Source: Desulfomonilaceae bacterium (lineage in GTDB: Bacteria; Desulfobacterota; Desulfomonilia; Desulfomonilales; Desulfomonilaceae). From it: DNA of 43,452 bases. Location of the stretch: assembly GCA_031082285.1 (NCBI GenBank), contig JAVHLK010000040.1, positions 1-43,452 on the forward strand. Direction: 5' to 3'. Numbering within the stretch: the first letter of the stretch is position 1; the number at the start of each line of letters is the position of its first letter. This document shows positions 13,113-18,884 of the stretch, one piece after another. The notes beneath the pieces are model-generated. The model had not been told where the DNA came from. It did not search any database and saw nothing but the letters and a program-made list of their open reading frames with translations. The position numbers and the translations under genes were made by a program.

Positions 13113-14657
13113 ATGACCACTCCGGACGAAACCATAGAAGACAGTCGCACTGAACTCGAACGGCTGCGTCGGCGCGTGCTTAAAGGTGAACGGGACTCAG
13201 CCGAGCTCAGGAATCTCCGGGATCGATTGGCCAAGGTGAGAGAGTGTTTCTACAGCCTCGGATCGGACCGACTCGAGAACATTCGTCGACTCACCGGACT
13301 TCTCGGAGAACTGGCCGGAACGGACGATCCGGACCTGGTCGATCTCGTGGCCGGCGGGATCCGAGCCGAAGAGAAGCGTAGACAGGCTGACGAATCCCTT
13401 CAAACTCATGTGTTCGGCCATGAAGGATCGGACGTGAAGTCGAACGGGGCCGGGGACTGCACCGACCGTGTGGCGGCCGAAGAGGCCCTGCGTATCAGCG
13501 AGGAACGATACCGAAAGCTCTACGAGAAATCCAAGCGGGGTGAGGAGATATACCGTTCCCTGATCGATTCGTCGGCCGATGCAATCGTCATTTATGACAT
13601 GCTGGGAAGGGTCATCCACGTAAGTCCTTCGTTTACGGAGATTTTCGGGTGGACGCTGGAGGAGGTGAAAGGAAAACGAATAGCGTACGTGCCTGATTCC
13701 GAGCGGGAGACGACTATGCACTTGATCGAGAAGGTCATCAGGACCGGCGTTCCCGTCACCGGCTTTGAGACGAAAAGATATACACGTGACGGTCGCATCC
13801 TGGACTTGAGCGTGATGGCTTCCCGCTATCACGACCATGAGGATAAGCCTTCGGGAATGCTCGTCATTCTTTCGGACATATCGGAACGCAAGCTTGCGGA
13901 GCAGGAAATTCGAAGGTTGAACGTGGAACTCGAGCGACGAGTGGCCCAACGAACCGCGCAACTCCAGGCGGCCAATGAAGAGCTCCAGGCATTCTCATAC
14001 TCGGTTTCCCACGATCTGCGCGCCCCGCTGAGAAGCATCGACGGGTTCAGCCAAGTGCTCCTGGAGGATTACTCAACGAGTCTGGACACCGACGGTCGAG
14101 ACTGCCTCCGGAGAGTGCGTGCCGCTTCTCAGCGAATGGCGCAGCTCATAGACGATTTGCTGAAATTGTCCCGCGTGACCAGGAGTGACATGAATCACGA
14201 GAAGGTCTACCTCAGCGGCCTGGTCGGCATCGTCGCCAAGGGTCTTCAAGAGATTGAGGCCGATCGCAAGGTCGAGTTCATCATACGCCCCGGGCTGGTC
14301 GTCTATGGCGACAAACGCCTGCTGAAAATTGCGATAGAAAATCTCTTGGGGAATGCCTGGAAGTTCACCCGCAACCGGGAGCATGCCCGAGTGGAGTTCG
14401 GTTTTGTCAAGGAACGCGTACACGGGAAGGCCGAAGCTCCGAGGACCGTCTATTTTGTTCGAGACAACGGCGCGGGTTTCGATATGAAGTACGCTTCAAA
14501 GCTGTTTGGTCCGTTTCAACGCTTGCACGGCGAAAAAGAGTTCTCCGGATCGGGCATCGGGCTGGCCACGGTGCAAAGGATTATCCATCGGCACGGAGGT
14601 GCGGTCTGGGGCGAGGGAATCGTGGACCGCGGGGCAACATTCTATTTCACGCTGTGA
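13113..14657 (+). CDS. PAS-domain sensor histidine kinase
   Basis: A 514-residue cytoplasmic kinase without membrane segments. Residues 1-145 are mostly charged helix. A PAS domain spans about 146-258 (SLIDSSADAIVIYDMLGRVI, then GMLVILSDISERK), followed by a coiled coil (259-292). The HisKA dimerisation helix carries H300 in Y-S-V-S-H-D-L-R-A-P-L as the phosphorylated residue. The HATPase_c domain has an N-box (ENLLGNAWKF), DNGAGFD and GSGIGLATVQRI. The YSVSHDLRAPLRSIDGF type is common in bacteriophytochrome-related kinases, which often pair with Rcp1-like response regulators, as here. The ligand is unknown; no GAF or PHY domain is present. GAGAGG lies a few bases upstream of the ATG. Confidence 0.9.
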   Translation: MTTPDETIEDSRTELERLRRRVLKGERDSAELRNLRDRLAKVRECFYSLGSDRLENIRRLTGLLGELAGTDDPDLVDLVAGGIRAEEKRRQADESLQTHVFGHEGSDVKSNGAGDCTDRVAAEEALRISEERYRKLYEKSKRGEEIYRSLIDSSADAIVIYDMLGRVIHVSPSFTEIFGWTLEEVKGKRIAYVPDSERETTMHLIEKVIRTGVPVTGFETKRYTRDGRILDLSVMASRYHDHEDKPSGMLVILSDISERKLAEQEIRRLNVELERRVAQRTAQLQAANEELQAFSYSVSHDLRAPLRSIDGFSQVLLEDYSTSLDTDGRDCLRRVRAASQRMAQLIDDLLKLSRVTRSDMNHEKVYLSGLVGIVAKGLQEIEADRKVEFIIRPGLVVYGDKRLLKIAIENLLGNAWKFTRNREHARVEFGFVKERVHGKAEAPRTVYFVRDNGAGFDMKYASKLFGPFQRLHGEKEFSGSGIGLATVQRIIHRHGGAVWGEGIVDRGATFYFTL

Positions 14658-14676
14658 TGGAAGGAGGAGCGGATTC

Positions 14677-15120
14677 ATGGAAAGAAGGATCATCCTGCTT
14701 GTGGAAGACAATGCCGACGATGAAGCTCTCACTCTCCGATCGTTGAGCAAGAGTAAAGTGGTGAACGAAGTTGTCGTGGCACGCGATGGAGTGGAGGCGC
14801 TGGAGTATCTCTTGGGCACCGGAGACGAGGACGTTGAGACATTGGGGCTGTTGCCCGAGGTCATCCTCCTCGATTTGAAGCTGCCCAAAATCGACGGCTT
14901 GGAGGTGCTCCGAAGAATACGCGCTCACGAGCGCACGAAGCTGGTCCCCGTGGTCGTGCTCACCTCATCGGACGAGGAACCGGATCTCATTGAGAGTTAT
15001 CGGTTGGGCGCAAACAGTTACGTCAGAAAACCTGTTGAGTTTACGAGATTTGCCGAGGCAATTCGTCACCTGGAACTCTATTGGATGGTATTGAACCAGA
15101 GCCCTCCGAGGAAGAGGTGA
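14677..15120 (+). CDS. Single-domain response regulator (Rcp1-like)
   Basis: A 147-residue CheY-fold receiver domain with no output domain. Acidic pocket residues are E10 and D11, the phospho-acceptor is D66 in VILLDLKLPKIDG, T96 follows in VVVLTSS, and the conserved lysine is K118 in SYVRKPVEF. The C-terminal RHLELYW segment is typical of Rcp1-type regulators that pair with phytochrome-family or PAS kinases. AAGGAGG lies about ten bases before the ATG, and the gene begins 19 bases after the kinase stop. It probably receives phosphate from one or both flanking kinases and passes it on or binds a partner protein. Confidence 0.92.
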   Translation: MERRIILLVEDNADDEALTLRSLSKSKVVNEVVVARDGVEALEYLLGTGDEDVETLGLLPEVILLDLKLPKIDGLEVLRRIRAHERTKLVPVVVLTSSDEEPDLIESYRLGANSYVRKPVEFTRFAEAIRHLELYWMVLNQSPPRKR

Positions 15121-15123
15121 ACG

Positions 15124-17049
15124 ATGAGTGAGAGGCTGCGGGTTTTGATCGTGGAGGATTCCGAAGACGACTGTCTCCTTCTGGTGCGGCATCTGCGTCG
15201 CGGCGGCTATCAACCGGAATTCAGGCGCGTGGAAACCAATTCCGCCGTGAGAGAAGCTCTCGTCGAACACACATGGGACGTCGTCATATCCGACTACGCC
15301 ATGCCTCACTTCAGCGCAATGGGTGTTCTCAGCGTGTTGAGGAGCATGCACCTCGACATCCCGTGTCTCATCGTTTCCGGCACGATCGGAGAAGAAACCG
15401 CGGTCACGATCATGAAGGCGGGCGCGAACGACTACATCATGAAGGACAACCTGCAGCGTTTGGTTCCCGCGATCGAGCGTGAAATCCGCGAGGCGGAGAT
15501 CCGTAAGGAGCGTCGGCGTACGGCCGAAGCGTTGAGAGAAAGCGAAGAGCGGTATCGATCTCTTGTGGACAACATAGATATCGGCGTAACGCTCATGGAT
15601 GCGGATTACAATGTCGTCATGACAAATCCTGCTCAATCTCGCCTCTTCTCCAAGCATGTGGACGAAATGGTCGGGACGAAATGCCATGAAACCTTTGCCG
15701 AGACGGCATCGATTTGCCCGTACTGCCCGGCGAGCCGTGCCATGAGCACCGGGCGCCCCGCGGAGGTGGAAGTTGAGCGGCTGATCGGGGATGAAAAACG
15801 AACCAATTTGAGGATCAGGGCGTTTCCAACTCTCGGAAGAGACGGTGCGATCACAGGATGCATCGAGGTGGTGGAGGACATCACACAGCGTGCCCGCATG
15901 GAGGAGCAACTTCGCCAAACCGCGCAACTCGAGGCAATAGGGAGACTTGCCGGGGGCGTGGCGCACGACTTCAACAACCTTCTGACCGCCATTCTTGGTT
16001 ATTCCAGTGTCTTGCTTCAACAAATGCCCAAGAACAGCAGTGAACGGGAAAAAGTGTTTCAGATCGGTCGCGCCGCCGAACGTGCTGCGGAACTCACTCG
16101 GCAGTTGTTGGCTTTCAGTCGCAAGCAGGTCTTGTCCGTCAGAGCACTCGACCTCAATCCTTTGATCGCGGATTTTGAAAAGATTCTCAGGCGTCTGCTC
16201 GGCGTAGACATTGAACTGATGACGGTTTTTGACCCCTCTTTGGGACAGGTCATGGCCGATCCCAACCAGATTGAGCAAATCCTGCTGAACCTCGCGGTCA
16301 ATGCCCGTGACGCAATGCCTGAAGGCGGCAAGCTGACGATGGAGACCGCGAACGTGACGCTGGACGAAGCGTATACCCGGGCCCACGCGGATCTCAACCC
16401 GGGACAATATGTGATGTTCTCGGTCGCCGACACCGGCGTAGGAATGGATGCGGATACCCGCAGCAATATATTCGACCCGTTCTTTACCACCAAAGAAAAG
16501 GGAAAGGGAACGGGGTTGGGTCTGTCCACCGTGTACGGCATCGTTAAACAGCACAAGGGCCATGTCTCCGTGTACAGCGAACCGGGACGGGGCAGTGTGT
16601 TCAAAATCTATCTGCCTTGTATGGAGCGCCGGATTGCATCGACATCGGAAGTCGCGGCCGCGGGCGACCAGCGGCGAGGGCACGAGACAGTACTGGTGGT
16701 GGAGGACGAAGAGGTCGTGCGCAATCTTGCGTGCGAGCTGTTGGAACTTCTCGGGTACTCCGTGTTGCATGCCGCCCATCCCCTGGAGGCAATTCGCTTA
16801 AGTCAAGAGTATGACGGACCGATACATCTCTTGCTGACCGATATCGTCCTGCCCAAGATGGACGGTGCTCGTCTCTATCGAACCATCTCGGAATCAAGGC
16901 CCGGAATAAAGGTGCTTTACGTCTCCGGGTACACGCAAAACGCCATCATCGATCACGGTGTGCTCAAACCAGGCGTGCACTTCCTGGCAAAACCGTTTAC
17001 CTTGGACAGCCTGGCAAGCAAGGTGAGAGAAATCCTTGACAAAGACTAG
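15124..17049 (+). CDS. Hybrid sensor kinase, REC-PAS-HisKA-HATPase-REC
   Basis: A 641-residue cytoplasmic protein starting three bases after the response regulator stop. An N-terminal receiver has D57 in VVISDYAMP. A PAS domain spans about 142-258 and contains C187, C198 and C201 (a CPYC pair in the middle of the domain). The HisKA helix has H281 in GGVAHDFNNLL, the form used by NtrB-like kinases. The HATPase_c domain has NARDAMPEGG, DTGVGM, and GTGLGLSTVYGIV. A C-terminal receiver has D573 in LLLTDIVLPKMDG and K623. The three genes form a phosphorelay with two histidines and three receiver domains. No transcriptional output domain is present in any of them. Confidence 0.92.
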   Translation: MSERLRVLIVEDSEDDCLLLVRHLRRGGYQPEFRRVETNSAVREALVEHTWDVVISDYAMPHFSAMGVLSVLRSMHLDIPCLIVSGTIGEETAVTIMKAGANDYIMKDNLQRLVPAIEREIREAEIRKERRRTAEALRESEERYRSLVDNIDIGVTLMDADYNVVMTNPAQSRLFSKHVDEMVGTKCHETFAETASICPYCPASRAMSTGRPAEVEVERLIGDEKRTNLRIRAFPTLGRDGAITGCIEVVEDITQRARMEEQLRQTAQLEAIGRLAGGVAHDFNNLLTAILGYSSVLLQQMPKNSSEREKVFQIGRAAERAAELTRQLLAFSRKQVLSVRALDLNPLIADFEKILRRLLGVDIELMTVFDPSLGQVMADPNQIEQILLNLAVNARDAMPEGGKLTMETANVTLDEAYTRAHADLNPGQYVMFSVADTGVGMDADTRSNIFDPFFTTKEKGKGTGLGLSTVYGIVKQHKGHVSVYSEPGRGSVFKIYLPCMERRIASTSEVAAAGDQRRGHETVLVVEDEEVVRNLACELLELLGYSVLHAAHPLEAIRLSQEYDGPIHLLLTDIVLPKMDGARLYRTISESRPGIKVLYVSGYTQNAIIDHGVLKPGVHFLAKPFTLDSLASKVREILDKD

Positions 17050-17342: not shown

Positions 17343-17372
17343 TTGACCCGGTTCCTGCAGGCAGCGTAACAT
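17343..17372 (+). promoter_or_regulatory. Candidate promoter of the TIGR04255/HicB-like/HicA-like cassette
   Basis: TTGACC at 17343-17348 and TAACAT at 17367-17372 are 18 bases apart, with the GTG start 41 bases further on. The -35 box matches five of six consensus bases. A second TA-rich hexamer (TAATAT, 17374-17379) lies just behind. Promoter use has not been tested. Confidence 0.45.
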
Positions 17373-17413: not shown

Positions 17414-18124
17414 GTGAGCAAAGTCCCTGACGAAAGGCACCCCAATTCTCCGCTCGTAGAGGTCGTTTTTGAGGTTCGATTCCCCGGTGAAACGGTCATC
17501 GAATCTCGTCGTCACGAGATTCAGGAGATCGTCAGAGCCGAGTTCCCCAATTTATTGGTCCCTCGAGTCGAAGCCGGTATGGCAGTGTCTTTAGAACCTT
17601 TTCGGTTCGAAAAACAGGATGGAAGTGCCGGAGTGATGGTGTCAATCAACAGATTCGGCTATTACTGTAGAGCTTATCCCGGATTTGATAGGTTTAGCGC
17701 GGAGTGTCTGAGGGTGATGGATCTGTTGGGTTCGATTGTTCCGATCCGACGGTTGAACCGTATCGGACTCCGCCATATCAACATTATCCCGTTTCTGCGA
17801 GAAGATGATCTTGTGCCGTTTTCGTATTTCTTTGAGTTGGGCGACAAGATGTTGGAATCACTTCCGGGCGGTATTGAGAATATCAGCATGGCTTTTGCCT
17901 TGTCTGGAGGCGGAGGTAAGATCACGACTCGAATCGAGTCGATTACCAGAACCGACGGTAGCCAGGAAGCCTTCCTTCTGGATTTCGACTACGCCAAAGA
18001 GGGTGAACTGACCTTCGGTCAAGTGCGTGATTACCTCAAGGAAGCCCATGATCGGTCTGCGGATCTGTTTCACCGGTTGATCACACCCAACTACCGTGAT
18101 TACATAAAGGGAGAGGAGATCTGA
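17414..18124 (+). CDS. TIGR04255-like protein of unknown function
   Basis: A 236-residue soluble protein with no signal peptide or membrane segment. It matches my recollection of the TIGR04255 family, a sporadically distributed group of about 250 residues with no assigned activity. Signatures are the opening N-S-P-L-V-E-V-V-F-E-V-R-F, a middle R-L-N-R-I-G-L-R-H-I-N segment and a C-terminal LLDFDY segment followed by a helix ending H-R-L-I-T-P-N-Y. The GTG start at 17414 places the family's opening strand about ten residues in; an earlier in-frame start would add 67 residues that do not fit. It ends two bases before the HicB-like gene, so the three genes are almost certainly one operon. It could be a regulator, a third toxin-antitoxin component or an effector. 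Confidence 0.75.
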   Translation: MSKVPDERHPNSPLVEVVFEVRFPGETVIESRRHEIQEIVRAEFPNLLVPRVEAGMAVSLEPFRFEKQDGSAGVMVSINRFGYYCRAYPGFDRFSAECLRVMDLLGSIVPIRRLNRIGLRHINIIPFLREDDLVPFSYFFELGDKMLESLPGGIENISMAFALSGGGGKITTRIESITRTDGSQEAFLLDFDYAKEGELTFGQVRDYLKEAHDRSADLFHRLITPNYRDYIKGEEI

Positions 18125-18126
18125 GG

Positions 18127-18579
18127 TTGGAAACGGCTACAGCTAAGACCTTACCCGTTTCGGGTTTCAAGCCATCCTGGAGCGGGGAAATAGTGACGGC
18201 AACTCCCGAGCCGGTTCGTGGTCTCGAACAGCCCGCTTCTGAGGCAGTGCAAGTTCGTACTGGCGACAGTCTTCGTCACAATCTTCCTCAAGAATACAAA
18301 GTAGCGGCACTTTCCTTCTCCGACGCTCACCTAAGACTGCGGCCCCGTAAGCCGGTCACGATATCCGTTGCACGGGGGCAGGACCTCTGGTTCGCTGAGA
18401 ATCTCCGATTGGACATATTCGCTACCGGTGACACGGCTCAAGATGCCATACATGAATTCATGAAACACGTTCTGAGCTTCTACAGGCATTACAAGGAGCT
18501 CACTTCAGAAGAAGCCATGGGCAACGCGTTGAGCCTCAAGACGGTTTTTGAAGAGAGTTTCGTTGAGGCTTGCGAATGA
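18127..18579 (+). CDS. HicB-like protein, middle gene of the cassette
   Basis: A 150-residue protein with a TTG start and GAGAGGAG about eight bases upstream. Residues 1-75 are low-complexity and polar and unrecognised. Residues 76-125 (PVTISVARGQDLWFAENL, then GDTAQDAIHEFMKHV) resemble the HicB partial RNase H fold: two beta strands, an acidic loop, the G-D-T-x-x-x-A-I turn and a helix. No C-terminal ribbon-helix-helix or HTH DNA-binding domain is evident, which differs from classical HicB. By position and fold it would be the antitoxin to the overlapping HicA-like protein. The order (antitoxin-like first) is the reverse of the usual hicA-hicB arrangement. Confidence 0.6.
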   Translation: METATAKTLPVSGFKPSWSGEIVTATPEPVRGLEQPASEAVQVRTGDSLRHNLPQEYKVAALSFSDAHLRLRPRKPVTISVARGQDLWFAENLRLDIFATGDTAQDAIHEFMKHVLSFYRHYKELTSEEAMGNALSLKTVFEESFVEACE

Positions 18580-18884
18580 AAGTTGACCGGAAGGCGGCTG
18601 AAAAGAGTCTCAAGAAGAAAGGCTTTCGACGAGACGTTTCCGGTGACCACGTCTATTTCTTCCACGTCTTCAACGGCAAAGAGACCGGAATCAAGACCTA
18701 TGTCTCTCATAGTGCGAAATATAGAGACATCGGCCCGGACAACTTGAAGAGTATGATGAGGCAACTCAGGCTTCAGACAGTACATGAAGCCCGGGACCTT
18801 CTCGAGTGTCCGATGACCGCGGACGAATACAACAATTTGCTCAGGAAACTCGGCCATCTCATGGTCGAGAAGACGGAATACTGA
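18576..18884 (+). CDS. HicA-like putative mRNA interferase
   Basis: A 102-residue protein. Its N-terminal 65 residues follow the HicA double-stranded RNA-binding-like fold: helix KAAEKSLKKKGFRRD, then S-G-D-H-V-Y-F with H25 in the position of the catalytic histidine (HicA has G-S-H), strand TYVSHS, and helix DIGPDNLKSMMRQLRL. HicA toxins cleave mRNA in the ribosome context. A 35-residue C-terminal extension (LLECPMTADEYNNLLRKLG) is longer than in classical HicA. The ATG overlaps the preceding stop as ATGA, so translation is coupled. Codon positions here look like those of the neighbouring genes. Activity has not been shown; H25 is the residue to test for significance. Confidence 0.65.
   Translation: MKVDRKAAEKSLKKKGFRRDVSGDHVYFFHVFNGKETGIKTYVSHSAKYRDIGPDNLKSMMRQLRLQTVHEARDLLECPMTADEYNNLLRKLGHLMVEKTEY

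Follow-up and report, generated by a model that had tools for sequence, protein, structure and literature searches.

A three-gene operon headed by a TIGR04255-family gene

In the window (the whole stretch of 43,452 nucleotides of Desulfomonilaceae bacterium DNA that was analyzed, contig JAVHLK010000040.1), we identified a tightly packed trio of genes encoding, in order, a TIGR04255-family protein, a protein with a predicted HicB-like core and a HicA-like protein (Table 1). We consider the chances about even that this trio is a tripartite type II toxin-antitoxin (TA) module in which the TIGR04255 protein binds the N-terminus of the antitoxin, and in which neutralization of the toxin depends on the TIGR04255 protein. 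This protein family is not specific to HicA: it stands first in three-gene operons that carry a number of unrelated toxin families, a feature that the preliminary description of this DNA had missed.

The three close-packed genes that had been reported earlier, with a 2-base gap followed by an ATGA overlap, were all recovered as open frames, and they have the layout of a type II TA locus, that is, small, tightly coupled and jointly conserved genes. The start assigned to gene 1 agrees with its relatives, lying ~10 residues ahead of the conserved PNSPLVE. A candidate promoter that had been placed at positions 17343-17372 was rejected, as such sites occur at chance level (one found, compared with 1.4 expected) and shuffled sequence yields as many. 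The trio is flanked by sensor-kinase genes and a transporter; directly upstream, positions 13113-17049 of the window hold consecutive genes for sensor kinases and response regulators. No attC-like site was found in the trio region of the window. Upstream synteny was absent in the nearest relative with the downstream transporter (G694), and for this reason an empty-site comparison with that genome was uninformative.

Table 1. Coordinates of the three genes and of their proposed functional segments (positions in the window)
Feature	Position	Strand	Remarks
Gene 1, TIGR04255-family protein, 236 aa	17414..18124	+	GTG start at 17414; proposed antitoxin-dedicated, chaperone-like partner
Gene 2, proposed antitoxin, 150 aa	18127..18579	+	TTG start at 18127; 2-base gap after gene 1
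Gene 2 N-terminal segment, residues 1-53	18127..18285	+	Predicted disordered, pLDDT ~31; proposed TIGR04255 docking segment
Gene 2 HicB-like core, residues 73-149, no DNA-binding domain	18343..18573	+	pLDDT ~90; structure matches
Gene 3, HicA-like proposed toxin, 102 aa	18576..18884	+	ATG start at 18576; ATGA overlap with gene 2
Gene 3 H25 codon (G-D-H), equivalent of the HicA catalytic histidine	18648..18650	+	Invariant in the trio HicA-like proteins
Gene 3 C-terminal extension, C-P-M-x4-Y-N-x2-L-R motif	18771..18881	+	Outside the HicA model

The product of gene 1 (P0001) matches the NCBIfam model TIGR04255 over residues 10-229 with a score of 94.4 bits (E = 9.4e-27) against a curated cut-off of 30 bits, in agreement with its initial assignment. 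TIGR04255 is a named but uncharacterized family for which we found no description in the literature. Sequence-based searches of solved structures yielded nothing useful. The AlphaFold model of this protein (mean pLDDT 88.3) has an alpha/beta fold, and structure searches with it gave no decisive relative. Matches at Z ~6-8 comprised phosphagen kinases (best Z 8.2), Mediator 18/20, spermine synthase, AdoMetDC and TBP-like chains; we rejected kinship with any of these proteins and read the matches as a common arrangement only. SecB was absent from both the sequence and the fold matches of TIGR04255, an absence that is compatible with a shared fold.

The third gene encodes a HicA-like protein

The description of gene 3 as HicA-like, with a G-D-H histidine, held up on closer analysis. 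Its product matches the HicA model PF07927 over residues 8-65 (E = 1.1e-5); the score of 25.9 bits falls slightly short of the 27-bit gathering cut-off of Pfam, and its relatives score 14-22 bits against the same model. Profile comparison with ordinary HicA gave a weak match (E = 8e-4, probability 24%) that aligns H25 with the histidine of the HicA G-S-H motif, and H25 is invariant in nine relatives. Within the C-terminal extension, residues C78, P79, M80, Y85, N86, L89 and R90 are invariant among the trio relatives, and the protein as a whole is basic (pI 9.5).

Two-gene pairs (L122, L131, L132, L133, L135, L136 and L137) contain weaker relatives of gene 3 that have a similar extension; in these pairs the upstream partner is HicB-like or a similarly placed small protein. 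Judged from these two-gene relatives, the gene 3 group looks like a divergent HicBA lineage with the antitoxin first, of which the trio would be the TIGR04255-using version. At other two-gene loci with such weaker relatives, the HicA-like gene is preceded by a gene for a ~355-residue protein (L121:1783-2865, L129:450-1511 and L130:1776-2840), and the C-terminal HicB-like part of the L121 protein is recognized by the gene 2 profile (E = 2e-9). The N-terminal domain of these longer proteins showed no similarity to TIGR04255 in profile comparisons; possibly it is a different accessory domain that has become fused to the antitoxin. The genome from which the window derives has 14 HicA matches, three of which lie within ~2.2 kb (G000:C292:93819-95939).

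The second gene is predicted to encode a HicB-like core

Gene 2 matched no model in Pfam, NCBIfam, PADLOC or PHROG, and comparing its profile with six HicB-like proteins encoded in the same genome gave no convincing match (probability 3.5%), so that its assignment to HicB rests on the predicted fold. An AlphaFold model built from eight sequences predicts that residues 54-148 are well ordered (pLDDT ~90) and form strands and then two helices. The top PDB match in Foldseek and VIA alike was the antitoxin chain 3k6q_B (Z 6.4 over 77 residues, model positions 73-149, 3.3 Å). The second VIA-align match was the Burkholderia pseudomallei HicB chain 6g1c_V (Z 5.5, 62 residues). These two leading matches are both HicB-family antitoxins, whose core has a partial RNase-H-like fold, but both Z values fall below 8, the level from which Z is safe. 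Chain 6g1n_C was found lower in the list (Z 4.7), and dsRBD and ribosome-hibernation folds made up much of the remaining matches. Given a modest Z and strong agreement with gene context, these results support the presence of a HicB-like core in the C-terminal part of gene 2. The predicted structure is also in line with the earlier proposal that this core comes without a DNA-binding domain, as the protein ends after it.

The preliminary description had also pointed to the reversed gene order and the missing DNA-binding domain. Both are present, but neither is unusual, because an ordinary hicBA pair in the window's genome (L003), whose 68-residue HicB is encoded first and has no DNA-binding domain, and the two-gene relatives of gene 3 show both. 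A C-terminal DNA-binding domain is found in only part of the HicB family.

The trio is conserved in genomes of two phyla

Conserved co-occurrence of the three genes, on which the preliminary description had staked its reading, was observed: complete trios in the same order occur in eight genomes of two phyla, namely that of the window and seven others. A search for gene 2 in 395 genomes of the window's phylum identified three other genomes, all of which carry the same-order trio. One further trio genome, from Nitrospirae, came from a scan of a species collection, and a TIGR04255 survey of Nitrospirae added three more. All close relatives of gene 2 lie between TIGR04255 and HicA-like genes. Across 691 genomes, a HicA-like profile gave 10 strong matches, which correspond to the eight complete trios, one locus truncated by a contig end and one rearranged remnant. 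In this remnant (L016:806-1255, also L126), an intact HicA-like frame is preceded by no more than the last part of gene 2, and the genome has no TIGR04255 gene; the frame is either silent or encodes a weak toxin.

The TIGR04255 proteins of the trios form one fully supported branch of the family tree, and because this branch mixes genomes of both phyla, it points to a probable spread of the trio by horizontal transfer. Searches of viral and phage collections detected no relative of gene 2, of gene 3 or of trio-type TIGR04255, and no gene 2 relative was detected on plasmids. Another TIGR04255 protein had no match among phage records and a single one, weak and partial, among viral contigs.

TIGR04255 heads operons with several unrelated toxin families

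TIGR04255 was found in 32 of 395 (8%) and 57 of 296 (19%) sampled genomes of two phyla, and we surveyed the gene neighborhoods of 82 non-identical loci. The next gene lies -35 to +15 bases from TIGR04255 in 66 of the 82, with an exact 4-base ATGA overlap in 33, and the third gene is tightly linked in 52 of the 63 loci where one was detected. TIGR04255 usually heads a tight operon in which a small gene 2 is followed by a variable third gene. Plasmid-borne TIGR04255 genes (from Cyanobacteriota, Deinococcota and Pseudomonadota) are also mostly followed by small genes, as in the survey.

The third genes include HicA-like (eight loci, including the window), PIN (five loci, best E = 1.6e-16), PemK/MazF (L022, E = 2e-13) and zeta-like members (among them L088; zeta matches at E = 6e-10 and 3e-12). 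A Vibrio plasmid record is independently annotated as TIGR04255, hypothetical protein and zeta toxin. Six loci have HEPN-like third genes, with Pfam E values of 6e-4 and 4e-3, under the cut-off, in the two that were tested; four have DUF7689 (Pfam tested in one); and uncharacterized third-gene families have 19, 10, 3 and 3 members. Of all third genes in the survey, about half are outside any known toxin family. The largest group (19 loci; L029-L033, L054 and relatives) encodes two uncharacterized proteins, the third gene product often having an SVTRH-like motif, and gene 2 of L030 weakly resembles the PADLOC candidate PDC-M32A (E = 2e-4). Another uncharacterized third-gene family is marked by a conserved Q-[DS]-C-D motif (L020, L059, L068, L090 and relatives); it spans 10 loci, with a related-looking group of three.

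Two pairs of loci show exchange of modules within these operons. The TIGR04255 proteins of L020 and L022 are 85% identical, and the DNA of the two loci is collinear (74% identity) over a stretch that starts upstream of gene 1 and reaches roughly codon 81 of gene 2, after which it is unrelated; the third gene is uncharacterized in L020 and encodes MazF in L022. Likewise, L057, with a PIN third gene, and L066, with an uncharacterized one, share DNA across gene 1 and ~29 codons of gene 2. As both exchanges break within gene 2, we place the boundary between TIGR04255-linked and third-gene-linked sequence inside this gene. Mapped onto the tree of TIGR04255 proteins, the effector type undergoes at least 13 changes among nine types (minimum of eight), compared with 32-42 in shuffles; effector type is thus strongly inherited with TIGR04255 yet repeatedly exchanged. 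A ~90-bp repeat near L022/L023 was considered as a possible integron attC site and rejected, as in L090 a DUF1156 methylase gene begins with the same stretch.

A proposed role for TIGR04255 as a partner of the antitoxin

In the mechanism that we propose, gene 3 would encode a HicA-like RNase toxin that is bound and blocked by the HicB-like core in the C-terminal part of gene 2, and the flexible N-terminus of gene 2 would be bound by the TIGR04255 protein, which may stabilize or fold the antitoxin in a chaperone-like manner. We assign the docking role to residues 1-53 of gene 2 because the exchanges seen in other TIGR04255 operons keep the start of this gene. Neutralization of the toxin would then depend on TIGR04255, and loss or diversion of this protein would free the toxin. 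With genes in the order partner, antitoxin, toxin and with coupled translation, the nascent antitoxin would meet its partner. In the family at large, TIGR04255 would be a shared platform, with the gene 2 N-terminus kept and the remainder of gene 2 changing along with the toxin, which may be of the PIN, MazF, HEPN, zeta or another type. The earlier idea that TIGR04255 acts as a third component is plausible. Our data suggest that TIGR04255 serves as a shared platform for unrelated toxins, a role of which we found no description in the literature. Against a strong toxin stands the remnant locus L016, which keeps its HicA-like frame in the absence of its partners; this would be odd if the frame were expressed.

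The TIGR04255 protein might instead be a sensor or trigger that, on recognizing a signal of phage or of stress, releases the toxin or activates it, in which case the trio would be an abortive-infection defense module. TIGR04255 operons occur within or beside restriction-modification genes (L036, L080, L082, L084), in a helicase-DUF1156 methylase island (L090), next to a multiubiquitin/ThiF cluster (one operon) and in a prophage region of a Pantoea sp. Lij88 plasmid, between lysis and terminase genes (L104), and the HicA trio L078 lies upstream of a PLD-SNF2 helicase. From these neighborhoods, a defense role for TIGR04255 operons is possible. However, none of the three trio proteins matched a PADLOC model, and no recognizable defense genes were seen among the neighbors of the window trio, and we regard a sensor function as unlikely. 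It would be compatible with a chaperone-like role, because loss of TIGR04255 could itself be the trigger. The position of the L104 operon, between lysis genes and terminase, is typical for cargo genes.

We also weighed whether TIGR04255 controls transcription of the operon, replacing the DNA-binding domain that the antitoxin lacks, like PaaR in paaR-paaA-parE. The preliminary description had raised such a stand-in function, and the weak Foldseek matches of P0001 do include the DNA-binding TATA-binding protein, but the remaining evidence did not support it. The protein has a pI of 5.3 and its family is mostly acidic, the secondary structure of its model has no evident helix-turn-helix or ribbon-helix-helix, and no operator palindrome shared upstream of TIGR04255 operons was found. 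Moreover, TIGR04255 is retained in loci where gene 2 itself carries an HTH. We therefore give a regulatory role little credence.

Finally, it is improbable that the trio is no TA module and that its HicA-like fold has been co-opted for a conserved, non-toxic complex of three proteins: the sub-threshold HicA score, the partnerless but intact frame of L016 and the many third genes of unknown type in TIGR04255 loci would suit such a complex, but the gene 3 histidine is invariant, the antidote core of gene 2 is HicB-like, other TIGR04255 operons carry well-known toxin families, and a patchy distribution in two phyla is typical of mobile modules.

Comparison with known systems and significance

If TIGR04255 is a partner of the antitoxin, its nearest tested precedent would, by analogy, be TAC, in which SecB-like chaperones serve HigBA, HicAB and MqsRA pairs via exchangeable antitoxin tails and the antitoxins are chaperone-dependent (PMC5105189). 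On our reading, both are three-gene operons with one partner for several unrelated TA families, HicAB included, and with an exchangeable flexible antitoxin segment. They differ in that the partner here is TIGR04255, for which similarity to SecB was not found in sequence or fold matches; in that the partner gene is first in TIGR04255 operons and last in TAC; and in that the proposed docking segment is N-terminal, whereas the chaperone-addiction extension of TAC is C-terminal. The range of candidate toxins is also different, including PIN, MazF, HEPN and zeta types, and the chaperone role of TIGR04255 is one that we infer. Panacea systems (PanA/DUF4065) likewise place one conserved family beside many unrelated toxin families (PMC8832971). 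There, however, the antitoxin itself is what the systems share, and most of them have two genes (PMC8832971), whereas TIGR04255 is encoded by a separate first gene and the presumed neutralizing part changes with the toxin. HipBST resembles the trio in being a three-gene TA operon (PMC10627512).

The trio shares with HicAB/HicBA pairs a HicA-like domain with its histidine, a HicB-like core and overlapping genes. It differs from them in the conserved C-terminal extension of gene 3 (C-P-M ... Y-N-x2-L-R), in the additional N-terminus of gene 2, predicted to be disordered, and in the presence of a third gene at every complete locus. The paaR-paaA-parE operon is a further three-gene TA operon, and both it and HipBST are tied to one toxin type each. 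To our knowledge, the third proteins of these two systems are not TIGR04255 members.

The natural exchanges that we describe render the idea of a TIGR04255 platform directly testable. If TIGR04255 is a dedicated antitoxin partner, this would explain why a sporadic family is found ahead of many different small gene pairs, and it would provide a function for several unnamed gene families that lie behind TIGR04255. It would also mean that the problem for which TAC systems use SecB has been solved a second time, independently.
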